Of a DNA stretch of 64,000 bases, positions 4,302 through 62,486 are shown one piece after another. Position numbers and translations under genes: made by a program. How positions within the stretch are numbered: the first letter of the stretch is position 1; each line of letters begins with the position of its first letter. The DNA comes from Actinokineospora inagensis DSM 44258 (lineage in GTDB: Bacteria; Actinomycetota; Actinomycetes; Mycobacteriales; Pseudonocardiaceae). The notes under the pieces are model-generated. The model was not told where the DNA came from. It made no database searches and saw only the letters and a program-made list of their open reading frames with translations. Where the stretch lies: positions 1 to 64,000 of the forward strand of contig NZ_AXWW01000028.1 of NCBI RefSeq assembly GCF_000482865.1, in the 5' to 3' direction.

Positions 4302-5717
4302 TCACGAGGCAAGAGGGGACTTCGGGCCGCCGCGCGCGTACCCGGGGCGGCGCAGCAACAACCGGCCCCAGCCGGTGACCGGCCGCTGGATGCCGCCGCG
4401 GCGGAACAGGACCAGACCGCTGACGACCGCGGTCAGCGCGGCGATGGCACCGCCGACGACGAACGGGGACCGGCCGCCCCACTCGTCGGCCATCCAGCCG
4501 ACCATCGGGGCGCCCAGCGGGTTGCCGCCGACGAAGACCAGCATGTAGAGGCCCATCACCCGGCCGCGCATCTCCGGGGCGACGGAGAGTTGGACGGTGG
4601 AGTTCGCCGTGGTCATGAAGGTCATCAGGCACAGGCCGACCGGGATCAGCGCGACCGCGAACGACGCGTACGTCGGCATGAACCCGACCAGCACCTCGAG
4701 CAGGCCGAACGCCAGCGCCGAGCCGAGCAGCAACCGGGTCCGCGGCTTGCCCCGCGAACTGCGCCGCACCGCCCACAGCGCCCCGGCCAGCGTGCCGATC
4801 GCCAGGGTCGTGGACAGCAGGCCGTACCCGTCGGCGTTCCGCCCGAACACGTTGGCGGCGACGACGGCCAGGGTCACGAAGAAGGTCATGCCGAAGGTGC
4901 TGACGAAGAACACCAGCACCATGACGGTCAGGATGTCCTTGCGCCCCCAGACATAACGCAGCCCCTCCAGCAGTTGCCCCTTGGCGCGCGGGACCTTCGG
5001 GCCGAGGATGAGCTTGGCCGGGTCCATCAGCAGCAGGCCCGCGATCACCGCGACGGTGAACAGGGCGTTGCCGAGGAACAGCCAACCGGTCCCGACCAGG
5101 GTGATCATCACGCCCGCGATGGCCGGGCCGACGATGCGGGCCAGGTTGAAGCTGGTCGAGTTCAGCGCGACCGCGTTGGCCACCTGGGCCCGGCCGACGA
5201 TCTCGGCCACGAAGGACTGCCGCACCGGGACCTCGACCGCGGAGAACGTGCCGAGCACGAAGCACAGCACGTACACGTGCCACACCTGCACGACCCCGGT
5301 CACGTCGAGCAGCCCGAGCACCAGCGCGCAGCAGGCCAGGCCCGCCTGCACCGCCACCAGCAGCTTGCGCTTGTCCAGCCGGTCGGCCAGGACACCGGCC
5401 CACAGCGAGAACAGCAGCGTGGGCAGGAACTGCAGCGCGGCGGCGATCCCCAGCGCCACCGGGTTGTTGTGGGACAGGACGAGCACCAGCCAGTCCTGCG
5501 CGATGCGCTGCATCCAGGTGCCCACGTTGGACACGACCTGGCCGGTCGCGAACAGCCGGTAGTTGCGGACCTTCAGCGAGGAGAACATGCCCGGCTTCGG
5601 GTCCACAGTGGACTTCGGTTCGGCGCTCGACACCGGGGCAGGGCTGTGCCGTCGCCGCGGGGGTGTCGAGGGAGTGAGTTGGGTCTGCTCTCGGGTACCA
5701 CCCGCGTGTGTCGGCAT
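4302..5717 (-). CDS. MFS exporter, EntS-like
   Basis: A 471-residue major facilitator transporter with about 12 membrane segments after a 45-residue Pro/Ser/Thr-rich cytoplasmic tail. It looks like the MFS_3/EntS group (FSSLKVRNYRLFATGQVVSNVGTW opening region and the GVLADRLDKRK loop-2 signature), which includes exporters of siderophores and drugs. Its ATG directly abuts the stop codon of the upstream MarR gene, so the pair is one operon and the regulator probably senses a substrate of the pump. An iron box lies just beyond its 3' end, but not at its promoter. Substrate unknown. Confidence 0.85.
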   Translation of the reverse strand: MPTHAGGTREQTQLTPSTPPRRRHSPAPVSSAEPKSTVDPKPGMFSSLKVRNYRLFATGQVVSNVGTWMQRIAQDWLVLVLSHNNPVALGIAAALQFLPTLLFSLWAGVLADRLDKRKLLVAVQAGLACCALVLGLLDVTGVVQVWHVYVLCFVLGTFSAVEVPVRQSFVAEIVGRAQVANAVALNSTSFNLARIVGPAIAGVMITLVGTGWLFLGNALFTVAVIAGLLLMDPAKLILGPKVPRAKGQLLEGLRYVWGRKDILTVMVLVFFVSTFGMTFFVTLAVVAANVFGRNADGYGLLSTTLAIGTLAGALWAVRRSSRGKPRTRLLLGSALAFGLLEVLVGFMPTYASFAVALIPVGLCLMTFMTTANSTVQLSVAPEMRGRVMGLYMLVFVGGNPLGAPMVGWMADEWGGRSPFVVGGAIAALTAVVSGLVLFRRGGIQRPVTGWGRLLLRRPGYARGGPKSPLAS

Positions 5718-6164
5718 CTAGTTCTGGTTCCCCGCCATCCTGTCGATGATGTCGGCGGCGCGGGCGAGGACCGCCCTGTCCTCGTCGTCCAGCTCCGCCA
5801 ACCGCTTGTCCAGCCACGCCTCCCTGGCGGAGATGTCCGCCTCGATGTAGGCCCGGCCGTCGTCGGTCAACGCGACGATGGCCTGCCTGCCGTCGCTCGG
5901 GTGCGGGCTCCGGCTCGCGTACCCCAGTTCCTCCAGCGCCGCGATGACCCGCGTCATCGACGGCGGCTGGACCCCTTCCTTGGCGGCCAACTCGCCCGGC
6001 GTCAACGGCCCGCACTTGTGCAGGCAGGACAGCGCCGAGATCTGGGTCAGGGTGACCGACGAGTTGGTCCGCTGCGCCCGCAGCCGCCGGTTGAGCCGCA
6101 CCACCGCCAGCCGCAACCGGCTGGTCAGCGCGCGCTCAGCGGACTCGGACACAATGGTTAGCAT
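5718..6164 (-). CDS. MarR-family transcriptional regulator
   Basis: A 148-residue winged-helix regulator. Residues ~45-110 (LTQISALSCLHKCGPLTPGELAAKE, then SMTRVIAALEELGYASR and the HPSDGRQAIVALT wing) are the MarR DNA-binding domain, flanked by dimerisation helices. It sits immediately upstream of the MFS pump gene with zero spacing and is divergent from the acetyltransferase. The ATG at 6164 lies within a segment carrying a TTAG-N9-CTAA dyad (6157-6173), a possible autoregulatory site. The ATG has no well-spaced ribosome site, so the message may be leaderless or a downstream GTG may be used. Confidence 0.88.
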   Translation of the reverse strand: MLTIVSESAERALTSRLRLAVVRLNRRLRAQRTNSSVTLTQISALSCLHKCGPLTPGELAAKEGVQPPSMTRVIAALEELGYASRSPHPSDGRQAIVALTDDGRAYIEADISAREAWLDKRLAELDDEDRAVLARAADIIDRMAGNQN

Positions 6165-6230
6165 ACCTCACTAATATGTCGGCGGGCCACGAACTCACGC
6201 CGACATCACACGACGCGGTAAAGTTGATCT

Positions 6231-6734
6231 ATGCAGGTTCGCCGCGCCCGCCCCGGGGACGGCTCCGGCATGGCCCGCGTCCACGTCGCCGCCTGGCGCG
6301 TCGGCTACCGCGGCATCATGGGCGACGACCGGTTGGCGAACCTCTCCGAACGCGCCTTCGCCCGACGGTGGGAGACGATCGTCACATCCCCGTCCGAGGC
6401 CAGGACCTTCGTCGCCGACCACGACGGCACCATCGTCGGCATCGCCACCGCCGGACCACCCCGCCACCCGGCACCCCCGGGCGCGGGCGAGGTCCGCATG
6501 GTCAACGTGCACCCCGACCACTGGCGCACCGGCGCGGGCACCGCCCTGCTCACCCGCTGCCTCGACGAACTCCGCCTACTCGGCCACACCAACGCCTACC
6601 TGTGGGTCGCCGAAGGCAACACCCGCGCCACCACCTTCTACACCCACCACGGCTGGACCCCCACCGGCGAAACCCTCGACGACGACCGCGAAACCCCACC
6701 CCTACGCGAACTCCGCTACACCCTCGACCTCTAG
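6231..6734 (+). CDS. GNAT-family N-acetyltransferase
   Basis: A 167-residue single-domain GNAT acetyltransferase. The acetyl-CoA-binding motif A is clear as VRMVNVHPDHWRTGAGTALL, followed by the motif B region FYTHHGW. Substrate not predictable. A TAAAGT hexamer at 6219-6224 lies six bases before the ATG with no ribosome-binding site, so a leaderless transcript is likely. It is divergent from the MarR-MFS operon, which shares its 66-bp promoter region. Confidence 0.88.
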   Translation: MQVRRARPGDGSGMARVHVAAWRVGYRGIMGDDRLANLSERAFARRWETIVTSPSEARTFVADHDGTIVGIATAGPPRHPAPPGAGEVRMVNVHPDHWRTGAGTALLTRCLDELRLLGHTNAYLWVAEGNTRATTFYTHHGWTPTGETLDDDRETPPLRELRYTLDL

Positions 6735-6759
6735 CAACCACGCCCGCACCTGGCTGCTC

Positions 6760-6815
6760 GCCGAAACGCCCAAGTACGCCCACGAGGCCGTTCCGACGCC
6801 TTGCCAGGAACACCG
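6760..6815. repeat. Dispersed intergenic repeat R4, copy 1
   Basis: A 56-bp stretch that recurs with few changes at 44729-44786 (shared blocks include CCGAAACG, AGTACGCCCA, CGAGGCCGTTCCG and CGCCTTGCCAGGAAC). Both copies lie in non-coding DNA just after or before genes. On the minus strand it can be read as FLARRRNGLV-GVLGRFG, but no start or gene context supports a protein. Confidence 0.7.
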
Positions 6816-6937
6816 CCGACCCAGCAGCGAAATCAGCGACAAACTCGAAACGCCGACACAGCGACTCCATCACAGCGAATGAAAACTCGCGGCACCAACC
6901 TTGACTTCAGCACCGCCCTTGGCCAAGCCGGACCCCT

Positions 6938-7040
6938 CCCACCCGGGGCCACGGGGCCCCATTCCTGACCGTATCGCGAACTGCGGCTTGTCAAGAGGAC
7001 CAGCCGGCTGCCTGTGGATGAGTGAGTCCGTTGTGGATGA
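6938..7040. repeat. Dispersed promoter-like repeat R3, copy 1
   Basis: About 100 bp shared with 28375-28477. Both contain a GGGGC..C hairpin, ATTCCTGAC, a GTAnCGCG block, GCGG-TTGTCAAG and then two TGTGGAYRA motifs spaced 19 bases apart. On the minus strand the block reads TTGACA, 15 bases, TACGGT, CAGGAATGGGG, which resembles a -35/-10 pair pointing left. Together with R4 this accounts for most of the 388-bp gap between the acetyltransferase and monooxygenase genes; no gene is supported there. Confidence 0.65.
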
Positions 7041-7122
7041 AAGCGCTCGTGCCGGGGCGTTGACTCGGTGCCGGCATTGGCTCGGTGAAGCCGCAGGCAA
7101 GCGGTCCTCGCGCGGAACAACG

Positions 7123-49099: not shown

Positions 49100-49954
49100 C
49101 TACGCGCCGACGGCGGCGGTGACGGCGCGCGAGGTGAGCACGCGGGCCAGGTGTTGGCGGTAGGCGACATCGGCGTCGCCGTCCGCGGTGGGGCTGGTGC
49201 CCTCGGCGGCGTGCGCGGCGGCCGCCTTGATCGACTCCGCGGTGGCCGGGCTGCCGACCAGGGCCCGCTCGACCGCGTCCGCGCGGACCGGCACCGCGGA
49301 CATGTTCGTCAACGCCACCCTGGCCTCGGCGATCACCCCACCCTCAACGCGGACGGCGACCGCGACGGCCACGATCGACCAGGCCTGGGCGACCCGGCTG
49401 AACTTCTCGTAGTGCGCGCCCCAGCCGGTGTGCTTGGGAATCCGCACCGCCACCAGGAGTTCGTCCTGGCGGAGCGCGGTGGTGAAGTAGTCGGTGAAGA
49501 AGTCCGCCGCGGCGACGGTGCGGCGGCCCGCCGGGCCGTGCAGGACCAGTTCGGCGTCCAGGGCGAGGGTTGGGGCGAGCAGGTCGCCCGCCGGGTCGGC
49601 GTGGACGAGCGCGCCACCAAAGGTGCCGCGGTGGCGGACCTGCGGGTCGGCGACCGTGTCGGTGGCGGCCCGCAGCAGCGGCGCGTGCACGCGGACCAGC
49701 GGATCGCGCTGCACCTCGTAGTGGGTGGTGGTCGCACCGATCACCAGCTCGTCACCATCGTCGCGGATACCACGCAACTCGGGGACGCGGCCGATGTCGA
49801 CGAGGGTGGTCGGGGCGGCCAATCGCATGCGCAGCACCGGAATCAGGCTCTGCCCACCCGCGATCACCTTGGCATCCTCACCCGATTCGGCGAGTGCGCG
49901 GACCGCATCCTCCACAGTGGACGGTGCGGTGTAGTCGAACGCCGCCGGGATCAC
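49100..49954 (-). CDS. coxM: Molybdenum hydroxylase FAD subunit (CoxM)
   Basis: A 284-residue FAD-binding medium subunit. AGGQSLIPVLRMRLA is the FAD pyrophosphate-binding loop and HRGTFGGALVHADPAGDL the second conserved FAD motif; a CO dehydrogenase flavoprotein C-terminal domain follows. It passes electrons from the iron-sulfur subunit to an acceptor. The GTG at 49954 overlaps the coxL stop by 4 bp. Confidence 0.95.
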   Translation of the reverse strand: MIPAAFDYTAPSTVEDAVRALAESGEDAKVIAGGQSLIPVLRMRLAAPTTLVDIGRVPELRGIRDDGDELVIGATTTHYEVQRDPLVRVHAPLLRAATDTVADPQVRHRGTFGGALVHADPAGDLLAPTLALDAELVLHGPAGRRTVAAADFFTDYFTTALRQDELLVAVRIPKHTGWGAHYEKFSRVAQAWSIVAVAVAVRVEGGVIAEARVALTNMSAVPVRADAVERALVGSPATAESIKAAAAHAAEGTSPTADGDADVAYRQHLARVLTSRAVTAAVGA

Positions 49955-52386
49955 AGGGCACCTCCGGTCGAGTCGATGGAGCCGAGTCCGCCGCCTGCCT
50001 CGCCCCCGGGGCCACCCGCGTCGGTGGGGCCGCCGTTGATCGCTGTCCAGACTCGCATGGGGGTGCATGGCATCTGGATGTCGTCGACTCCGAAGTGGCG
50101 CACCGCGTCGACCACGGCGTTGACCACGGCCGGGGTCGAGGCGATGGTGCCCGCCTCGCCGACGCCCTTCACGCCGAGCTGGTTGGTGGTCGACGGCGTC
50201 TCGGTGCGGTCGGTGTCGAAGTGCGGCAGGTCCACCGCGGACGGGAGCAGGTAGTCGGCGAACGTTCCCGTTGTCAACGTGCCGCTCTCGTCGTGCACGG
50301 CCTCCTCGTAGAGCGCCTGGGCGATGCCCTGCGCCAGTCCACCGTGGACCTGGCCCTCGACGATGACCGGGTTGACCACGACGCCAACGTCGTCGACGCA
50401 GACGTACTTGCGGATCTTGACGAACCCGGTCTCTGTGTCGACCTCGACCGCGCACAGGTGGGTGCCGTGCGGGAAGGAGAAGTTGTCCGGGTCGAAGGTG
50501 GCCGCCGAGTCCAGCGACGGCTCGACCCCGTCCGGCAGGTCGTGCGCGGCGAACACGGCCAGCGCGACCTCGGTGATGCCGGTGGACCGCTCGGTGCCGC
50601 GCACGGTGAACCGGCCGCCGGTGAACTCCAGGTCGTCCTCGGCGCACTCCATCATGTGCGCGGCCACCCGGCGGGCCTTGCGGATGACCTTCTCGCCCGC
50701 CTTGAGCACCGCCATGGCGCCCACGGTGAGCGAGCGGGAGCCGTATGTGTCGAGGCCCTTGGGCGAGGACTGGGTGTCGCCGTGCAGGACCTCGACGTCC
50801 TCGAACGGCACGCCGAGCTGGTCGGCGACGATCTGGCTCCACGCCGTCTCGTGGCCCTGGCCGTGCGCGGACGACCCGGTGACCACCTCGACCTTGCCGC
50901 TGGGCAACATCCGGATCGCGGCGTGCTCCCAGCCGCCCGCCCCGTACGAGAGCGAGCCGAGCACCCGGGACGGGGCCAGGCCGCACATCTCGGTGAAGGT
51001 GGAGGTACCGATGCCGAGCTGGACCGAGTCGCCCCGGTCGCGGCGCTCGCGCTGCTCGGCGCGCAGTTCGTCGTAGCCGAACAGTTCCTTGGCGCGGGCG
51101 GTGGCGGCCTCGTAGTTGCCCGAGTCGTACTCCAGGCCGCAGACGGTGGTGAACGGGAACTCGTCGTGCTTGATCCAGTTCTGCTCGCGCAGCTCGATCG
51201 GGTCGCGGCCGAGCTCGGCGGCCAGCTCGTCCATCAGCCGTTCGATGGCGAAGGTGGCCTCCGGCCTGCCCGCGCCCCGGTAGGCGTCGGTGGGGGTCTT
51301 GGTGGTGAACACGTTGGTGCAGGCGAACCGGTAGGCCGGGAACTTGTAGATGGCGTTGAACATGAACGCGCCCAGGATCGGCACGCCCGGGGTGACCAAT
51401 CGCAGGTAGGCGCCCATGTCGGCGAGCAGGTCGACCTTGAGGCCGGTGACGGTGCCGTCCCGGCGGGCGGCCAGGGTGAGCCGCTGGAGCTGGTCGCGGC
51501 CGTGGTGCGCGGACAGCAGCGACTCCGAGCGGGACTCGGTCCACTTCACCGGTTTGCCCAGCCGGGTGGCCACCACCAGGGCGACGACTTCCTCGGGGGT
51601 GACCTGGAGCTTGCCGCCGAACCCGCCGCCGACGTCGGGGGCGATGACGCGCAGCTTGTGCTCGGGGACGCCGGTGGTCAGCGCGAGCATGAGCCGCAGG
51701 ATGTGCGGGATCTGGGTGGCCGACCAGACGGTGGTCTGCTCCCCGGTGGGATCGACCAGCACGGACCGGGGTTCCATGAACGCCGGGATGAGCCGCTGCT
51801 GCCGGTAGGTGCGCTCGATGAGCACCTCGGCCTCGGCGATGGCCTGCTCGACATCGCCGCCGGTGCCCGCCTCGGCCGAGTCGAACACCCAGTGCGCGGA
51901 CCGGTTGGTGCCCAGATCCGGGTGGACCACGTCGGCGTCCTCGGCGATGGCGGCCCGCAGGTCGAGCACGACGGGGAGCTCGTCGTAGTCGACGTCGATG
52001 GCCTCCAGCGCGTCGTGCGCCTCGGCCTTGCCCCGGGCGACGACGACGGCCACCGCCTCACCCGCGAAGTTGACCTGGTCGACAGCCAGGGACGGCGCGG
52101 CGGGCGCCACCTGGTCGGCGGTGACCGGCCAGGCGCACGGCAGGCTGCCCTGCGCGTCGGCGATGTCGCGGCCGGTGAAGACCGCGACCACCCCGGGCGC
52201 GCGTCGGGCGGCCTCGACGTCGATCGAGGTGATCTTGGCGTGCGCGACCGGGCTGCGCAGGAAGGCCAGGTGCAGCAGGCCGGGGACGGTGAGGTTGTCG
52301 GTCCACCGGGTGCGGCCGGTGACCAGCCGCGCGTCCTCCTTGCGCGGCCTGGCCCGGCCGACCTCGGGCTCGATGGTGGCGGTCAC
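49951..52386 (-). CDS. coxL: Molybdenum hydroxylase large subunit, CoxL form II
   Basis: An 811-residue molybdopterin cytosine dinucleotide-binding subunit of the xanthine oxidase family. Conserved Mo-pterin segments include [31 protein letters not shown] and [10 protein letters not shown] with the catalytic Glu. The active-site loop reads AYRGAGR (residues 368-374), the form II signature, not the AYxCSFR of true aerobic CO dehydrogenase, so the substrate is probably an N-heterocycle, aldehyde or purine. Overlaps coxS by 4 bp. Confidence 0.96.
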
Positions 52387-52922
52387 CGCTCACCCCCGAC
52401 CAGTTCACCGGGGGTCGCAGTGGCCTCGGTGGCTTCGGTGGCCCCGGTCGGAGCCGGGTCCGGGCGCAGCCGCTGGGCGGCGTCCAGGACCGCGCGGACG
52501 ATGTTCTGGTAGCCGGTGCAGCGGCACAGGTTGCCCTTGAGGCCGTGCCGCACCGCCTGCTCGTCCGGATCGGGGTTGTCGGCGAGCAGGTCGATCGACT
52601 GCATGATCATCCCCGGGGTGCAGAAGCCGCACTGCAGGGCGTGGTTGTCGTGGAAGGCCTGCTGCAGCGGGTGCAGCACGCCGTCGCGGGCCAGCCCCTC
52701 GACGGTGGTGATCTCGGCGCCGTCGGCCTGCACGGCGAGCACCGAGCACGACTTCACGCTCTGCCCGTCGAGGTGCACGGTGCAGGCGCCGCAGTTGCTC
52801 GTGTCGCAGCCGACGACGGTCCCGGTCTTGCCGATCGCCTCCCGCAGGTGGTGGACCAGCAGTTGGCGTGGCGCCACCTCATCGCGGTAGGTGGTCCCGT
52901 CGACAGTGACGGTGATGCGCAT
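52383..52922 (-). CDS. coxS: Molybdenum hydroxylase [2Fe-2S] subunit (CoxS)
   Basis: A 179-residue small subunit with two [2Fe-2S] clusters: a plant ferredoxin-type [21 protein letters not shown] near residues 45-65 and the CGFCTPG / LCRCTGY pair in the C-terminal helical domain. Transfers electrons from the molybdenum centre to CoxM. ATG 52922 is preferred over a longer frame. The C-terminal ~25 residues are Thr/Ala-rich. The 175-bp gap before it probably holds a promoter. Confidence 0.96.
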
Positions 52923-53097
52923 CCTGCCTCCCAGCCCTCGCTCGGTTCCGCCCTGACGAGCCCGCATCCGTGATCGGGCTCACAACCAGCCTGCCCTCGT
53001 TGGCCGATCCGGACAAGCCCGATCCGCCCGCCTGTGGACAACTCGGTCGCCAATGGACGAAATACCCAGGTCGGAGCCGTCAACAGGCTCGACAGGA

Positions 53098-54210
53098 CTA
53101 GCCGTGGATGCGTCCGGAAAGGACGGACAGCCGCTGGCCGCCGCCGCCCCAGCGGGTCGCGATGATCTCCGCCGCGATCGACACGGCCGTCTCCTCCGGG
53201 GTGCGCGCGCCGAGGTCGAGGCCGATCGGCGAGGCGAGCGCGCCGAGCTCGGCCTCGGACAGGCCCGCCTCGCGCAGCCGCTCCAGCCGGTCCGCGTGGG
53301 TGCGACGGGAACCCATGGCACCGACGTAGCCCAGGCGGCTGCGCAGTGCTACCCGCAGGACGGGGATGTCGAACTTGGGGTCGTGGGTGAGTACGGCGAC
53401 CACGGTGCGCTCGTCCACCCTGTCCTCGGCGAGTTCGCGTTCCAGGTAGCGGTGGGGCCAGTCGACGACGACCTCGTGCGCGCTGGGGAACCGGCTGGTG
53501 GTCGCGAAGACCGGCCGCGCGTCGCACACGGTGACCCGGTAGCCCAGGTAGGCACCCATCCGGGCCATCGCGGCGGCGAAGTCGATCGCGCCGAAGACGA
53601 GCATCCGGGGCGGCGGCTCGAACGAGGTCACGAACACGCCCATGCCCTCGCCGCGGCGTTCGCCGTCCGGGCCGTAGCCGATCATCGCGGTGCGCCCGGT
53701 GGCGAGCAGGCCGCGCGCGTCGTCCACGATCGCGGCGTCGATCCGGTCGGAGCCGGTGCCACCCGTGTGCCGGTCCGACCAGACCAGTACCCGTTTGCCG
53801 AGGCGGTCCGGATCAGGGTGAGCGACGACGGTGGCGACGGCGACCGGGACCTCGCCGCGCACCGACTCGGCGAGCAGCTCGAAGTCGGGGAACGACGCGC
53901 GGTCGACCCGTTCGACGTAGATGTCGATGATCCCGCCGCAGGTCAGGCCGACCGCGAAGGCGTCGTCGTCGCTGACCCCGTAGCGCTGCAGCACCGGCCG
54001 CCCACTGGCGAGGACTTCCTGGCCGAGTTCGTACACCGCTCCCTCGACGCACCCGCCGGAGACACTGCCGGTGACGGTGCCATCGGTGGCGACAACCATG
54101 GCGGCGCCGGGCGCACGTGGGGCGGACGAGAAGGTGGCGACGACGGTGCCGACGGCCACGGATTCACCCGCCTGGTAGCGGCGAAGCACCTCGTCGAGCA
54201 CGTCACGCAC
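53098..54210 (-). CDS. xdhC: XdhC/CoxI family molybdenum enzyme maturation factor
   Basis: A 370-residue protein of the XdhC/CoxI family, which binds the molybdenum cofactor, promotes its sulfuration and hands it to the hydroxylase. The N-terminal XdhC_CoxI domain (AVGTVVATFSSAPRAPGAAMVV, SGSVSGGCVEGAV) and the C-terminal Rossmann XdhC_C domain (VFGAIDFAAAMARMGAYLGY, YVGAMGSRRTHADRLERL) are both present. Overlaps coxE by 8 bp. Confidence 0.94.
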   Translation of the reverse strand: MRDVLDEVLRRYQAGESVAVGTVVATFSSAPRAPGAAMVVATDGTVTGSVSGGCVEGAVYELGQEVLASGRPVLQRYGVSDDDAFAVGLTCGGIIDIYVERVDRASFPDFELLAESVRGEVPVAVATVVAHPDPDRLGKRVLVWSDRHTGGTGSDRIDAAIVDDARGLLATGRTAMIGYGPDGERRGEGMGVFVTSFEPPPRMLVFGAIDFAAAMARMGAYLGYRVTVCDARPVFATTSRFPSAHEVVVDWPHRYLERELAEDRVDERTVVAVLTHDPKFDIPVLRVALRSRLGYVGAMGSRRTHADRLERLREAGLSEAELGALASPIGLDLGARTPEETAVSIAAEIIATRWGGGGQRLSVLSGRIHG

Positions 54211-55300
54211 GGCGTACCTCCCGGAGCAGGAGATCGAGTGTGGCCACGCTGTGGCCCGCGAGCAAGCTGTCGATGTGCGGTAGCGCTACCGCGATGCCGG
54301 ACTGGACGGGTTGGTACACCGGCGATCCCGCGTGCGGGTTCACCCACAGGACCCGGTGGGCGAGCCTGCTCAACCGGGCCATCTGCGTCCCGAGCAGCGT
54401 GGTGTCGCCGCGCTCCCACCCGTCGGAAAACAGCACAACAACAGCTTGCCTGGCAACACCCCGTTGACCCCAACGGTCCAGGAAGGTCCTCAGGGTCTCA
54501 CCGAGTCTGGTCCCACCCGCGTAATCGGGGACGGCTCGCGCGGCGGCTGCCAGGGCGAGTTCCGGATCGCGTTGACGGAGTTGCCGCGTGAGCCTGGTCA
54601 GGCGGGTTCCGAGGGTGAACATCTCGGTGGGCGACCGGCGAGCCATGGCGTGGGCGAACCGTAGGAGCGCGTCGGCGTAAGAGGCCATCGAGCCCGACAC
54701 GTCAATCAGCAGGACGACTCGACGGGGCTTCCTGGCGCGGCGCTTGCGCGCGAGCCGCATGGGTTCGCCGCCGGTGGCCCGCATCAGCCGCAGGGTGCGC
54801 CGGTCATCGATCCGACCGCGTGGAGCCGGTCGCCACCGAACGGCCGCGCGTAGGGGTGGTTCGGGGCGCAAGAGGTCGATCATCTCGCGCAGGTGCGCGC
54901 GCTCGGCGGCGGTGAGATCAGCGATGTCCCGGTGGCGTAGGACCTCTTGCGAGCTGGCCAAGCGGTCGACGTGCATGGCGTTGTCACCCGTACCGGCACT
55001 TGTGGGTGAGAGAGACGCGATGTGGCCGCGCTGGGGGCGTGTCTCCTTGGTGGGTCTCGGCGCACGCGGCGTGTCGCCGGTGAACCACGCGTGGAAGGCG
55101 TTGTCGTAGCGCGGTAGGTCGTCCGGCTCCGCGCACAAGGTGAGCCTGCCTGCCCAGTACACCTGACTCACGTCGGCGAGGTCGACGAGCTCAACCGCGG
55201 CGAGGTAGGCCTGGACGCGATCCGGGCCGCAGGCCACCCCGGCGGCTCGCAACGCGGCGGCGAAGCCGACGAGACCGGGCAGCGGGTCGACCGGAGTCAC
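54203..55300 (-). CDS. coxE: VWA-domain protein CoxE
   Basis: A 365-residue protein with a C-terminal von Willebrand factor A domain; LLIDVSGSM is the metal-ion-dependent adhesion motif, with later Thr and Asp positions (FSDGWERGD). CoxE works with the MoxR-type ATPase CoxD in inserting the metal centre of molybdenum hydroxylases. Normally the coxD gene is next to it; here coxD lies 6 kb away beyond the pls locus. GTG start at 55300; the longer frame is a shadow of padR. Confidence 0.9.
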   Translation of the reverse strand: MTPVDPLPGLVGFAAALRAAGVACGPDRVQAYLAAVELVDLADVSQVYWAGRLTLCAEPDDLPRYDNAFHAWFTGDTPRAPRPTKETRPQRGHIASLSPTSAGTGDNAMHVDRLASSQEVLRHRDIADLTAAERAHLREMIDLLRPEPPLRAAVRWRPAPRGRIDDRRTLRLMRATGGEPMRLARKRRARKPRRVVLLIDVSGSMASYADALLRFAHAMARRSPTEMFTLGTRLTRLTRQLRQRDPELALAAAARAVPDYAGGTRLGETLRTFLDRWGQRGVARQAVVVLFSDGWERGDTTLLGTQMARLSRLAHRVLWVNPHAGSPVYQPVQSGIAVALPHIDSLLAGHSVATLDLLLREVRRA

Positions 55301-55334
55301 CCAGGCAGTGTGCCCCAGGTCACCCGGTCGGCGC

Positions 55335-55634
55335 TCAGGCCATGTCCTCGGCCAACTCGGTGAGCACGACGCGGCAGTCGGCGAGCACGCGCTTCCCCCG
55401 TTTGGTGGTCCGGTAGCGGCGGATCCGCCTGCCGTCGACCACCTCGGTGCGCGACTTGAGCAGACCGGCCTCCTGCAGCCGGTGCAGCAGCGGGTACAGC
55501 GTGCCGGGCGACACCCGATGCCCACGCGCGGCCAGTTCCTCGGTCAGCCAGGCCCCGTGCACCTCCTCGGCCGCCGCGTACCTGAGCACCCGCAGCCGCA
55601 GCGCCCCGTTGGCGAACTCCCGGACCACATCCAT
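55335..55634 (-). CDS. PadR-family transcriptional regulator
   Basis: A 99-residue winged-helix regulator (MDVVREFANGALRLRVLRYAA.. GHRVSPGTLYPLLHRLQEAGLLKS.. RRIRRYRTTKRGKRVLADC), about the minimal PadR size without a long C-terminal dimerisation domain. The ATG at 55634 is chosen by family alignment over 55670. A palindrome lies 10-26 bases upstream and a related site midway to the divergent pls gene, so it probably represses itself and pls. Confidence 0.88.
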   Translation of the reverse strand: MDVVREFANGALRLRVLRYAAAEEVHGAWLTEELAARGHRVSPGTLYPLLHRLQEAGLLKSRTEVVDGRRIRRYRTTKRGKRVLADCRVVLTELAEDMA

Positions 55635-55643
55635 CGGTCCACA

Positions 55644-55660
55644 ATATCGTGCCTCGATAT
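55644..55660. promoter_or_regulatory. Candidate PadR operator 1
   Basis: ATATCG-TGCCT-CGATAT is a perfect inverted repeat just upstream of the padR ATG, overlapping its promoter/translation start. Such AT-containing dyads are unusual in this GC-rich DNA and are typical of PadR autoregulatory sites. Confidence 0.6.
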
Positions 55661-55723
55661 CGCGAGCCAAGTCTGATCAAATCCGCAGCACAAGAAGCCA
55701 AAATGCTGTACTTATCGGTGGGT

Positions 55724-55891: not shown

Positions 55892-58800
55892 GTGAGAAAT
55901 GCGTTCGCCGCGATGACGATGGTCCACCACCCGACCCCTCTGCTGACCGCTATCGATCCGCTGGCCGAGGCCGCCGCGCGCGGGCTCGCCGTGTTCCGCG
56001 CCGGACCGGAGAGCGCCCCGCGCACCCTGGTCGACGTCCTCCGCTCGACCGCCGCGCGCCACCCGGACGCCGACGCCCTCGACGACGGCACCACCGTGCT
56101 GAGCTACCGCGCGCTGCTGGCCGAGGTCGACGCGCTGGCCGCCACCCTCACCCTGGCCGGGGTCGGCCGGGGCGACCGGGTCGGTGTGCGGGTCCCGTCC
56201 GGCACCGCCGACCTGTACGTGTCGATCCTGGCCACCCTGGTCGCGGGCGCGGCCTACGTGCCGGTCGACTTCGACGACCCGGACGAGCGGGCGGACCTGG
56301 TCTTCGGCGAGGCAAACGCTTGCGCCGTGCTCGGCGGTGGCCGCTCGGTCACCCACCGGAGCAGCCCGGTCGGGCTGCCGGGCACCCCCGGCCTGGAGGA
56401 CGACGCCTGGATCATCTTCACCTCGGGGTCGACCGGCAAGCCGAAGGGCGTGGCGGTCAGCCACCGCAGCGCGGCCGCGTTCGTGGACGCCGAGGCCGAC
56501 CTCTTCCTGGCCGACGAGCCGATCAACCCGGACGACCGGGTGCTGGCGGGCCTGTCGGTCGCCTTCGACGCCTCCTGCGAGGAGATGTGGCTGGCCTGGC
56601 GCAACGGGGCCTGCCTGGTGCCCGCGCCGCGCGCGCTGGTGCGCACCGGGGTCGACCTGGGGCCGTGGCTGGTGGAGAAGGGCATCACCGTCGTGTCCAC
56701 GGTGCCGACGCTGGCCGCGCTGTGGCCTGCCGACGCGCTCGACGACGTCCGGCTGCTGATCTTCGGCGGCGAAGCGTGCCCGCCTGAGCTGGCCGAGCGG
56801 CTGGCCATCGAGGGCCGCGAGGTGTGGAACACCTACGGCCCGACCGAGGCGACCGTGGTGGCCTGCGGCGCCCAGTTGACCGGCGAGGGCCCGGTGCGGA
56901 TCGGGCTGCCGCTGGACGGCTGGGAGCTGGCCGTCGTCGACGAGGCGGGCGAGCTGGTGCCGATGGGCGAGGTCGGGCAACTGGTGATCGGCGGCGCCGG
57001 TCTGGCCAGGTACCTCGATCCGGTGAAGGACGCCGAGAAGTTCGCGCCGCTGCCCGCGCTGTCGTGGGACCGCGCGTACCGCAGCGGCGACATGGTCAAG
57101 GCGGAGTCGGCGGGGCTGCTGTTCCTGGGCCGGGCGGACGAGCAGATCAAGCTCGGCGGTCGGCGTATCGAGCTGGGTGAGGTCGACGCGGCGCTGCAGT
57201 CCCTGCCGTACGTGGCAGGCGCGGCTGCCGCCGTTCGCACTACCTCGGCCGGTAACCAGCTCCTGGTCGGTTATGTCGTCGTCTCCGACGGCTTCGACGC
57301 GGATGTCGCTATCGAGCGGTTGCGCGCTGAGCTGCCCGCGGCGCTGGTCCCGCTGATCGCCGTAGTGGACACGCTGCCCACGCGGACCTCCGGCAAGGTG
57401 GACCGCAACGCGCTGCCGTGGCCGCTGGACCTGGACACCTCCGACGTCGACACGGCGGCCCTGACCGATACCCAGCGCTGGCTCGCCGAGCTGTGGCGGG
57501 ACCTGCTCGGGGTGTCGGTGAGCAGTCCGAAGGCCGACTTCTTCGCCAACGGCGGCGGCAGCCTGTCCGCCGCGCAACTGGTGTCCAAGATCCGCGAGAA
57601 GCACCCCAGCATCGCGGTCGCCGACCTCTACCAGAGCCCGACGCTGGGCAAGCTCGCCGACCACATCGACGCGGCCGCGTCCAGCACGCAGAGCGACCGG
57701 GTAGTGCTACCGGTGCCGCGTCGCGCCCAGGTCATCCAGGCCCTCTTGACGCTGCCGATGTTGACGGTCGTGGGTGCCCGGTGGGTCGTGGCTCTTGCCG
57801 CGTTGAACAACCTGGTCGCCCTGCCGTGGGCACCGAAGGTGTCGTGGTGGCTCGTGTTCGCGGGCTGGTTGGTGTTCATGAGCCCGTGGGGGCGTATGGC
57901 GCTGGCTGCCGTGACCGCGCGCCTGCTGCTGCGAGGGGTCGAACCAGGCTCTTACCCGCGCGGCGGGAGTGTCCACCTACGGCTGTGGGCCGCGGAGCGG
58001 CTGGTCGAGCTGACCGGTGCGGCCGGTCTGCAAGGTGCGCCGTGGATGACGCACTACGCGCGGGTGCTCGGCGCGAAGATCGGCGACGGTGTCGACCTGC
58101 ACTCGCTGCCCCCGGTCACCGGCATGCTCCGGCTGGGCCGCGGCGCGGCGATCGAGCCCGAGGTCGACCTGTCCGGCCACTGGCTCGACGGCGACGTCCT
58201 GCACATCGGGTCGGTCCGGGTCGACGCGAACGCCACGGTCGGCGCGCGCAGCACGCTGTTCCCGGGTGCCCGGGTCGGCAAGCGCGCCGAGGTCGCGCCG
58301 GGTTCCGGGGTGATGGGCGCGGTTCCCGCCGGTCAGCGCTGGTCGGGCTCACCGGCCGCGCGCACCGGCAAGGCGAGCGCGAAGGGCGTGCGTCCGGAGC
58401 GCCGTCGGCGTTGGGTGGGCATCTATGCGCTGTCGTCGTTCGTGCTGAGTGTGCTGCCCGTCGCGGCAGCGGTACCGGCACTGTTTGTGCTGACGGCGTT
58501 CCTGGACGGCACGACCACCTTGAGCGGTGCCACCACCAAGGCCCTGGTCGCGGTTCCGGTTGTCACGCTGACCTGGATGGCCTCTTACGCGCTGTTGATC
58601 CTCGTGCTGGTGCGGTCGCTGTCGATCGGTATGCGTGCCGGTAAGCACGCGGTGCACAGCCGGGTCGCGTGGCAGGCCTGGGCGACGGAGCGGCTGATGG
58701 GCCTTGCCCGGTCCGGTCTGTTCCCGATGTACGCCAGCCTGTTCACCCCGGTGTGGCTGCGCGCCTTGGGGATGAAGGTCGGTAGGCGCGTCGAGGCGTC

Positions 58801-59785
58801 AACGGTGTTGGCGCTACCGAGCATGACCACCGTTGGCGACGGCGCGTTCTTGGCCGACGACACGATGATCGGCTCTTACGAGCTCGGCGGCGGTTGGATG
58901 CGCATCGGTGCCGCCAGCATCGGTAAGCGGGCATTCCTGGGCAACTCCGGTATGACCGCGCCCGGTAGGGCTGTCCCGAAGCGTGGCTTGGTCGGCGTTC
59001 TGTCGTCTACGCCCAAGAAGGCCAAGGCCGGTTCTTCGTACCTCGGCATGCCGCCGATGAAGCTTCCGCGCACTGTTGAGGCTGCCGACGAGAGCACCAC
59101 GTTCGACCCGCCGCGGCGTCTTGTGGTCGCCCGCGCGGTGGTCGAGGTGTGCCGTGTCATCCCGGTGATGGCGTCCGCCGCGTTGGCCGTTCTGGTCGCC
59201 GCGAGCCTGACCTACGCCGGGTTCTGGCTGGGCTTGGCGATCAGCGGGCTACTGCTGTTCGGCGCCGGTGTGACCGCGTGCGCGGTGGCCGTCCTGGCCA
59301 AGTGGACCCTGGTCGGGCGGTTCGGCACCGTGGACCACCCGCTGTGGAGTTCGTTCGTGTGGCGCAACGAGCTGGCGGACACGTTCGTCGAGATGCTCGC
59401 GGTGCCGTGGTTCGCGACCTGGGCGCACGGGTCGCCGCTGCTGTCGGTGTGGCTGCGCGGGTTGGGCGCCAAGATCGGCCGGGGCGCCTGGGTGGAGACC
59501 TACTGGCTGCCCGAGGCCGACCTGGTTCACGTCGGCCACGGCGCCACGGTCAGCCGCGGCTGCGTGCTGCAGACCCACCTGTTCCACGACCGGATCATGA
59601 GCATGGCCCCGGTGACCGTCGGCGACGGCGGCACGCTCGGTCCGCACGGCATCGTGCTGCCCGGCGCGACCATCGGCGAGCGCACCACCGTCGGCCCGGC
59701 GTCGCTGGTCATGCGTGGCGAGTCCGTCCCGGACGGCAGCCGCTGGCTGGGCAACCCGATCTCGGCGTGGCCGAGCAAGCGCTGA
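55892..59785 (+). CDS. Pls/PosA-type single-module poly-amino-acid synthetase
   Basis: A 1297-residue NRPS-like protein. Residues ~45-515 are an adenylation domain (FTSGSTGKPKG near 174; YGPTEATVV; YRSGDMV; SGKVDRNALP), ~525-600 a peptidyl-carrier domain with pantetheine Ser in FFANGGGSLSAA. Then come three pairs of membrane helices (~620-680, ~845-915, ~1075-1135), each followed by a left-handed beta-helix-like acetyltransferase-type block (GAKIGDGV.., GMKVGRRV.., GAKIGRGA..). This A-T-(TM2-LbH)x3 layout, without thioesterase or condensation domain, is that of epsilon-poly-L-lysine synthetase. Starts at GTG 55892 or ATG 55913/55919. Hand-read specificity residues suggest a basic amino acid. 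Confidence 0.93.
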   Translation: MRNAFAAMTMVHHPTPLLTAIDPLAEAAARGLAVFRAGPESAPRTLVDVLRSTAARHPDADALDDGTTVLSYRALLAEVDALAATLTLAGVGRGDRVGVRVPSGTADLYVSILATLVAGAAYVPVDFDDPDERADLVFGEANACAVLGGGRSVTHRSSPVGLPGTPGLEDDAWIIFTSGSTGKPKGVAVSHRSAAAFVDAEADLFLADEPINPDDRVLAGLSVAFDASCEEMWLAWRNGACLVPAPRALVRTGVDLGPWLVEKGITVVSTVPTLAALWPADALDDVRLLIFGGEACPPELAERLAIEGREVWNTYGPTEATVVACGAQLTGEGPVRIGLPLDGWELAVVDEAGELVPMGEVGQLVIGGAGLARYLDPVKDAEKFAPLPALSWDRAYRSGDMVKAESAGLLFLGRADEQIKLGGRRIELGEVDAALQSLPYVAGAAAAVRTTSAGNQLLVGYVVVSDGFDADVAIERLRAELPAALVPLIAVVDTLPTRTSGKVDRNALPWPLDLDTSDVDTAALTDTQRWLAELWRDLLGVSVSSPKADFFANGGGSLSAAQLVSKIREKHPSIAVADLYQSPTLGKLADHIDAAASSTQSDRVVLPVPRRAQVIQALLTLPMLTVVGARWVVALAALNNLVALPWAPKVSWWLVFAGWLVFMSPWGRMALAAVTARLLLRGVEPGSYPRGGSVHLRLWAAERLVELTGAAGLQGAPWMTHYARVLGAKIGDGVDLHSLPPVTGMLRLGRGAAIEPEVDLSGHWLDGDVLHIGSVRVDANATVGARSTLFPGARVGKRAEVAPGSGVMGAVPAGQRWSGSPAARTGKASAKGVRPERRRRWVGIYALSSFVLSVLPVAAAVPALFVLTAFLDGTTTLSGATTKALVAVPVVTLTWMASYALLILVLVRSLSIGMRAGKHAVHSRVAWQAWATERLMGLARSGLFPMYASLFTPVWLRALGMKVGRRVEASTVLALPSMTTVGDGAFLADDTMIGSYELGGGWMRIGAASIGKRAFLGNSGMTAPGRAVPKRGLVGVLSSTPKKAKAGSSYLGMPPMKLPRTVEAADESTTFDPPRRLVVARAVVEVCRVIPVMASAALAVLVAASLTYAGFWLGLAISGLLLFGAGVTACAVAVLAKWTLVGRFGTVDHPLWSSFVWRNELADTFVEMLAVPWFATWAHGSPLLSVWLRGLGAKIGRGAWVETYWLPEADLVHVGHGATVSRGCVLQTHLFHDRIMSMAPVTVGDGGTLGPHGIVLPGATIGERTTVGPASLVMRGESVPDGSRWLGNPISAWPSKR

Positions 59786-61547: not shown

Positions 61548-62390
61548 TCAGCCCGCGAGGAGCGCGTCCAGCCCTGCGGCCACGACGCGGTCGATGTCCT
61601 CGCGGTACTTGAGAACAGCGCCGAGGGTGCGGGCGGCGGTGGCGGCGTCGAGTTCGTCCCGGTGGAGGGCGGTGAGGGCGGCGGCCCAGTCAAGCGTCTC
61701 GGCGACTCCCGGAGGCTTGAGGAGGTCTTGGCCGCGGAGGCGACGGACGGCGTTGACGATCTGGGCGGCAAGGCGGTCGGGCAGACCGGGGTGGCGCAAG
61801 CGCAGGATGGCCAACTCGCGGGCGAGGGTGGGGTGGTCCAGCCAGTGGTACAGGCAGCGGCGCTTGAGGGCGTCGTGGACTTCCCGGGTGCGGTTGGAGG
61901 TCAACACGACCAGGGGTGGCTCCACGGCGCGGATTTCGCCCAGTTCGGGAATCGTGACGGCGGCCTCGCCGAGGATCTCCAAGAGGAACGCCTCGAACTC
62001 GTCATCGGCGCGGTCGATCTCGTCGACCAGCAGCACGCACGGGGTTTCGAGAGCACGAAGCAGGGGACGGGCCAAGAGGAACCGACGCGTATAGAGGGAT
62101 TCGACGGCTGAGCCCGCGCGTAGTTCCAAGAGCTGCCGGGGGAAGTCCCACTCGTAGAGGGCTTGAGTGGCGTCGATGCCCTCGTAGCACTGGAGGCGGA
62201 TCAGGTCCAGGTTCAACGATGACGCCAAGGCCGCGGCAAGGGCGGTTTTACCGGTGCCGGGTTCACCCTCGCAGAAGAGGGGACGGCGGAGGTTGACCGC
62301 GAGGTACGCGGCGGTCGCGAGGCCCTCGTCGGCGAGGTAGCCGACGGCCGCAAGAGCCGCGGCCATCTCCTCCGGGGTCCGGACAGGCAT
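61548..62390 (-). CDS. coxD: MoxR-family AAA+ ATPase (CoxD-like)
   Basis: A 280-residue AAA+ ATPase: Walker A GEPGTGKT (residues 42-49), Walker B LLVDEIDRAD, sensor 1 TSNRTRE, arginine finger region LKRRCLYHW. It is closest to the CoxD branch of MoxR ATPases, which cooperate with CoxE in maturing the Mo/S/Cu or Mo centre of CoxL-type enzymes. It is separated from coxE by the padR-pls-peptidase block, yet has the same orientation as the cox operon. ATG 62390 or GTG 62399. Confidence 0.9.
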   Translation of the reverse strand: MPVRTPEEMAAALAAVGYLADEGLATAAYLAVNLRRPLFCEGEPGTGKTALAAALASSLNLDLIRLQCYEGIDATQALYEWDFPRQLLELRAGSAVESLYTRRFLLARPLLRALETPCVLLVDEIDRADDEFEAFLLEILGEAAVTIPELGEIRAVEPPLVVLTSNRTREVHDALKRRCLYHWLDHPTLARELAILRLRHPGLPDRLAAQIVNAVRRLRGQDLLKPPGVAETLDWAAALTALHRDELDAATAARTLGAVLKYREDIDRVVAAGLDALLAG

Positions 62391-62486
62391 ACGGGTCACC
62401 CTAACCCGACCCCCGAAACGACCCCTAGTCCAGAACCCGGGTCGTTCCCCGATGGCAGGACGCGTGCCGCGGTCCACTCTTGAGGC

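Follow-up and report, generated by a model that had tools for sequence, protein, structure and literature searches.

A predicted epsilon-poly-L-lysine synthetase gene and its PldII-like peptidase partner in Actinokineospora inagensis

Introduction

Epsilon-poly-L-lysine (epsilon-PL) is a known antimicrobial polymer, and the structure 7WEW is that of the adenylation domain (A-domain) of a synthetase which we take to be the S. albulus enzyme. The available accounts of S. albulus describe a 1404-bp peptidase gene, pldII, that lies beside the synthetase gene pls, is translationally coupled to it and encodes an enzyme degrading epsilon-PL. According to PMC8117764, the Pls of C. variabile yields epsilon-PL of 26-35 residues when produced in S. 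coelicolor, and a pls-peptidase operon separates epsilon-PL synthetases from the enzymes using diaminobutyrate (Dab) or diaminopropionate (Dap). A further member of the family, PosA of Acinetobacter baumannii, makes delta-poly-L-ornithine and has an A-domain 36% identical to 7WEW (PMC10522769). Here we analyze a stretch of 64,000 nucleotides from Actinokineospora inagensis DSM 44258 (contig NZ_AXWW01000028.1, positions 1 to 64,000; hereafter the window), which carries a pls gene followed by a PldII-like peptidase gene. From its sequence, this gene very probably encodes a membrane-bound, iterative, single-module nonribosomal peptide synthetase making epsilon-PL, with the peptidase in a trimming or protective role. 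The result adds a synthetase well supported by sequence from a genus for which our literature searches found no report of epsilon-PL production. Such clusters are already routinely annotated at class level, and the novelty here is small, consisting of a candidate leader open reading frame (ORF), a PadR partner found only in the genus and the insertion site.

Domain organization and substrate pocket

A first-pass annotation of this DNA had proposed a Pls-type synthetase with an adenylation domain, a carrier, six membrane helices, three beta-helix-like blocks and no thioesterase, and had called for a search with the Pls profile. The frame is uninterrupted from 55892 to 59785 on the forward strand (1297 codons; residues are numbered here from the GTG at 55892, i.e. 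in the 1297-aa version). The profile search returned a match to NCBIfam TIGR02353 (Pls/PosA family) covering model positions 1-695 of 695 and residues 614-1290, at 754.9 bits against a curated cut-off of 423.1. Pls is matched by four Pfam families, AMP-binding (51-373), AMP-binding_C (430-502), PP-binding (529-592) and the hexapeptide repeat Hexapep (776-807), with neither condensation nor thioesterase families among them, and the NCBIfam amino-acid adenylation domain family covers residues 71-445. The order of adenylation and carrier domains lacking condensation and thioesterase domains is the one required of Pls, and the Pfam list bears out this part of the annotation. The membrane part was upheld less completely. 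By hydropathy, segments that look membrane-like fall into three clusters (617-644, 850-906 and 1077-1135). These would be compatible with six helices arranged as three pairs, although in the first pair one helix, the second, stayed below threshold and only part of the six could be told apart individually. For the three beta-helix-like blocks, which in Pls would be acetyltransferase-like hexapeptide blocks set apart by the helices, the family model and one Hexapep match (27.5 bits, cut-off 27) are the indications.

Alignment with MAFFT to GrsA (1AMU numbering) places D226, A227, E230, S269, I290, G292, T314, V322, V323 and K502 in the pocket, giving the code DAESIGTVVK. This is exactly the pocket read by hand in the first-pass annotation, D-A-E-S-I-G-T-V-V plus the A10 Lys, and Glu230, whose loss on proper alignment had been considered possible, is retained. 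In the same columns 7WEW reads DAESIGTVVK and the GrsA control DAWTIAAIC, the textbook code of GrsA. 7WEW ('Epsilon-poly-L-lysine synthase') is also the best match in the PDB, with 330 of 487 aligned A-domain residues identical (67.8%). Among 141 further rows, DAESIGTVVK recurs in 121 (80 named loci, 29 other relatives, four of which duplicate named loci, and 12 loci from Streptomyces that are close to 7WEW). The remaining 20, paralogs deliberately included as a contrast, show ten different codes, DFECLSVVTK and DFEYLGTVTK among them. According to PMC10522769, code position 2 is Ala in lysine-activating members, Met in PosA and Phe in Dap/Dab enzymes, and both the Asp at position 1 and the Glu at position 3 are essential in PosA. 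With Ala and Glu as its second and third code residues, the window Pls shows the lysine state; it has neither the Phe of the poly-Dab and poly-Dap synthetases nor the Met of PosA. PosA resembles it in family model, architecture and the Asp/Glu pair, but differs in its ornithine substrate and its code, D-M-E-H-N-G-T-V-S-K (PMC10522769).

That the protein is a decayed or non-polymerizing family member is extremely unlikely. Such a reading could draw on our literature searches, which found no production data for the genus, but the frame is open, the pocket is intact, the terminal domain is full length and the phosphopantetheine-bearing Ser557 (57560-57562) is in place, a Ser being found there in all 142 aligned rows. 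Furthermore, a full-length ortholog is present in 16/16 genomes of the genus, and because these are 77-89% identical to the window Pls in 14 relatives and 71% in one more, the gene appears to be under purifying selection.

Position among characterized relatives

To place the window Pls beside the C. variabile enzyme, genomes were screened for 25 bases of the forward primer published for its gene. These occurred in none of 401 genomes of a family sample and, with zero mismatches, in one of 242 genomes of a single genus; the gene of that genome, used here as C. variabile Pls, encodes 1321 aa and its end matches the published reverse primer as well. The window Pls is 57.7% identical to C. variabile Pls (730/1266) and 56.4% identical to the Streptomyces 7WEW-type protein of locus L148 (719/1275), the A-domain of which is 93.0% identical to 7WEW. 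Since the two reference proteins are 50.8% identical (654/1288; the published value for C. variabile versus S. albulus is 51%, PMC8117764), the window Pls is nearer to each of them than they are to one another. The C. variabile enzyme shares with the window the pocket, the domain order by alignment and a downstream M1 peptidase gene, although it belongs to another actinobacterial family and its peptidase is only 41% identical (PMC8117764 for the enzyme). Similarly, the Streptomyces loci nearest 7WEW (L148-L152) have an identical pocket and the pls-pldII pair, but their Pls proteins are 56-57% identical to that of the window over the whole length, and no PadR gene was found beside them at E 1e-10.

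A quick tree of 60 rows, which included C. variabile and no confirmed beta-lysine synthetase, grouped the window Pls with that of C. variabile in a 35-row set (Shimodaira-Hasegawa-like approximate likelihood ratio test, SH-aLRT, 100), with eight 7WEW-type rows in a separate adjacent set (100) and 14 non-lysine rows outside (100); the lysine-pocket side as a whole holds 46 rows (SH-aLRT 100), and the program warned that long branches meet among the outgroup rows. The window Pls lies inside the lysine-pocket polymerizing clade, and the placement among non-polymerizing families that the first-pass annotation had allowed for did not occur. Homology, pocket, domain order, tree position and gene pair are all directly observed.

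All known products of the family are polymers of diamino acids, its codes do not always separate substrates and several substrates are placed close together in the family review (PMC10522769). One could accordingly suppose that a different diamino acid, such as ornithine, beta-lysine, Dab or Dap, is polymerized, yet this is highly unlikely. The lysine state at position 2 stands against the Met of PosA and the Phe of Dap/Dab enzymes, the pocket is identical to those of 7WEW and the confirmed C. variabile enzyme, non-lysine codes fall outside in the tree, and the epsilon-poly-beta-lysine enzymes are described in PMC10522769 as a separate branch in another group. On the grounds of Ala at position 2, the tree and the 7WEW pocket, ornithine, Dab, Dap and beta-lysine were set aside as substrates. 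Nor is the pls gene adjoined by diaminobutyrate transaminase (dat) and aspartate kinase (ask) genes, the arrangement of poly-Dab/poly-Dap loci; it is flanked by genes for a PadR regulator and for an M1 peptidase.

The PldII-like peptidase and the proposed product

A gap of 17 nt separates the pls stop from the pldII-like gene, whose product contains an HEXXH-18-E motif and is 47-48% identical to the counterparts at L148-L152. In all 110 loci with a pls ortholog (80 named and 30 others, window included; 106 after removal of the duplicates L018=L035, L024=L047, L030=L050 and L034=L083), a peptidase gene lies downstream on the same strand. With gene ends extrapolated, 109 of these loci have no more than 105 nt between the two genes and L112 has 610 nt; the copy at L031 is interrupted by a contig end. 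The window has the operon with a PldII-type M1 peptidase by which epsilon-PL synthetases are told apart in the literature, and the peptidase is presumably, by analogy, an epsilon-PL-trimming or self-protection enzyme.

Based upon the characterized relatives, a pathway can be proposed for the substrate, bond type, export and role of the peptidase. Firstly, the A-domain would activate L-lysine as the adenylate, with Asp226 holding the alpha-amine and Glu230 the epsilon-amine, and the lysyl unit would be loaded onto Ser557 of the carrier. Secondly, the terminal membrane domain would link lysyl units by isopeptide bonds between epsilon-amino and alpha-carboxyl groups, and the chain would be released outside the cell. 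Finally, the PldII-like M1 peptidase would trim or degrade the polymer and protect the producer. The first-pass annotation had left the choice between lysine and beta-lysine, and between a homopolymer and a capped oligomer. Its reading as a maker of a cationic homopolymer, with lysine among the candidate substrates, is supported; plain epsilon-PL is favored over beta-lysine or capped products, because the pocket equals those of 7WEW and the C. variabile enzyme and a PldII-type peptidase gene is present.

A related possibility is that lysine is activated but the product is a short or capped oligomer, or a cell-bound housekeeping polymer, instead of a 25-35-mer antimicrobial. The retention of pls in 16/16 genus genomes is wider than expected for an occasional antibiotic, sequence gives no chain length, and repression of pldII in S. 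albulus is described as having shifted the range of product lengths. Neither operon gene is recognized by NCBIfam or Pfam as encoding a capping enzyme, however, and the C. variabile relative yielded 26-35-mers on expression (PMC8117764). We regard this alternative as unlikely, and synthesis of epsilon-PL as the better description.

Several points nonetheless weigh against this conclusion. The repetition of the pocket among relatives is not independent evidence, because the pocket is inherited by common descent, and of 20 loci in a further set, nine of which coincide with earlier ones, 18 have DAESIGTVVK and two lysine-clade rows have Val for Ile. The pls-peptidase pair is not universal, since three of these 20 loci (L159, L160 and L163) encode a lysine-pocket Pls with no peptidase; these are extra copies, and their host genomes also hold a pls copy with a peptidase. 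Moreover, a pls gene is no proof of production: according to PMC8117764, neither C. variabile nor C. glutamicum carrying its pls had detectable epsilon-PL, and the product was seen only when a Streptomyces promoter drove the gene in S. coelicolor.

Start codon and a candidate leader ORF

The start at 55892 given in the first-pass annotation is probably 21 nt early, and the ATG at 55913 (1290 aa) is probably the true start. GTG 55892 was set aside because the relative L017 has GTA at this position and because a conserved purine-rich stretch is spaced at the usual distance from another codon, ATG 55899, which opens a candidate leader mini-ORF (Table 1). The sequence directly 5' of the gene, GAAAAGGTGAGAAATGCG, is nearly constant across the genus and sets this purine-rich ribosome-binding stretch a few bases 5' of ATG 55899; GAAAAGGTGAGAA is conserved upstream of the mini-ORF. 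Such a leader frame, of 5 or 9 codons, occurs in 15/16 distinct genus loci, the exception being L023. Nine peptides are encoded (MRSPR, MRQTR, MRSSR, MRSLK, MRTKR, MRTQR, MRPTKRCEK, MRLTKRCET and MRSTKRCTR), all with Arg at position 2. Lys is present in only some, and a role of the leader as a lysine sensor is not supported. Because the peptides differ among lineages, it is the arrangement rather than the peptide that would be kept.

The same scan looked for mini-ORFs no longer than 25 codons that have a ribosome-like site and a TGA overlapping an in-frame pls start. Among 79 other named loci, it detected the arrangement in 13 and not in the remaining 66, compared with 11 of 390 control genes from the same loci (one-sided Fisher p = 1.8e-5). 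The control is a rough one, its genes being chosen by length and codon-position guanine-plus-cytosine content with true start codons not known. The overall count of 35/129 loci includes four duplicates and is not one row per species, which leaves the comparison of 13/79 with 11/390 unaffected. We infer that pls is translated by way of the leader ORF, through translational coupling. A bolder and tentative suggestion is that in several actinobacterial lineages pls translation might be gated by a leader ORF holding the sole good ribosome binding site, with pls reached only by coupled re-initiation. If true, such gating could represent a level of epsilon-PL control that is new to the literature, and the leader ORF, if real, would offer a simple handle on pls expression. 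According to PMC8117764, the regulation of epsilon-PL is less well understood than its synthesis, and pls expression is the limiting step in heterologous production with the C. variabile enzyme.

Genomic neighborhood and distribution

Divergent from pls is a PadR-family gene, for which the nearest NCBIfam model scores under its cut-off. All 16 distinct genus loci have it next to pls, and the rest of the 110 loci lack it there; it may regulate the operon. In the window and in genome G005, the padR-pls-pldII module is found between coxD-like and coxE-like genes, in the window splitting a cox-like molybdenum-hydroxylase cluster, and coxE is within 2 kb of pls in 11 of the 12 genus genomes having coxE. 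In genome G001 (L172), coxD and coxE adjoin, 182 nt apart, and are followed by the XdhC, small-subunit and large-subunit genes. In the stretches of G004 (a short contig), G013 and A. bangkokensis, XdhC is the only one of these genes beside the module. The simplest reading would be that the module moved into a cox-like operon, part of which some lineages later lost.

Table 1. Coordinates of pls, its domains and neighboring features in the window
Feature	Position	Strand	Basis or remark
pls, epsilon-poly-L-lysine synthetase (predicted)	55913..59785	+	1290 aa, preferred start; TIGR02353, 7WEW match
Adenylation domain, pocket DAESIGTVVK	56042..57397	+	residues 51-502; Pfam; alignment to GrsA 1AMU and 7WEW
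Carrier (thiolation) domain	57476..57667	+	residues 529-592; PP-binding 49.2 bits
Membrane-bound terminal (polymerizing) domain	57731..59761	+	residues 614-1290; full-length TIGR02353 match; hydropathy
Candidate leader mini-ORF, ATG CGT TCG CCG CGA TGA (MRSPR)	55899..55916	+	TGA overlaps ATG 55913
pldII-like gene, M1-family zinc peptidase, 458 aa	59803..61179	+	Pfam Peptidase_M1 and Peptidase_M1_N
PadR-family regulator, divergent from pls, start uncertain	55335..55670	-	Pfam PadR 60.3 bits
coxD-like	61548-62477	-	
coxE-like	54203-55525	-	
XdhC-like	53098-54210	-	
Small subunit gene, molybdenum-hydroxylase cluster	52383-52967	-	below all curated cut-offs
Large subunit gene, molybdenum-hydroxylase cluster	49951-52386	-	below all curated cut-offs

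The nearest named locus is that of Actinokineospora bangkokensis (78%), which is carried in identical form by G002, a genome of the same genus. Beyond the genus, whole-protein matches at E = 0 are found in 15/32 other genomes of the family and 12/32 of the order, and the 7WEW A-domain is matched at E 1e-150 or better in 167 of 392 Streptomyces genomes.

The A. inagensis genome also encodes a second Pls-family synthetase (L115:6985-11040, minus strand, G000 contig C7; TIGR02353 685.7 bits; pocket DFECLSVVTK), which is followed by dat and ask genes (5612-7090 and 4348-5610). This is the arrangement of gamma-poly-diaminobutyrate synthetases according to a figure legend in PMC8117764, and the paralog looks like a poly-diaminobutyrate synthetase. 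Enzymes of that kind belong to the same family as the window Pls but differ in having Phe at code position 2 and other neighbors, and the L115 paralog is 29.9% identical to it. With both synthetases, the genome is predicted to be able to make two different cationic polymers.

The lysine-pocket copies lacking an adjoining PldII-like gene, L159 (G034), L160 (G042) and L163 (G021), are 56-58% identical to the window Pls, and that of L160 sits between recO-like and undecaprenyl-diphosphate-synthase-like genes. Two further paralogs, L128 (G032) and L129 (G034), have the pocket DSECYGGVTK, which in PMC10522769 is the code of a Bdellovibrionales homolog whose A-domain is most active with L-arginine. 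Another, L123 (G021), has the pocket DGESVSVVNK, one residue off an unassigned Methylomarinum code in the same source (PMC10522769).

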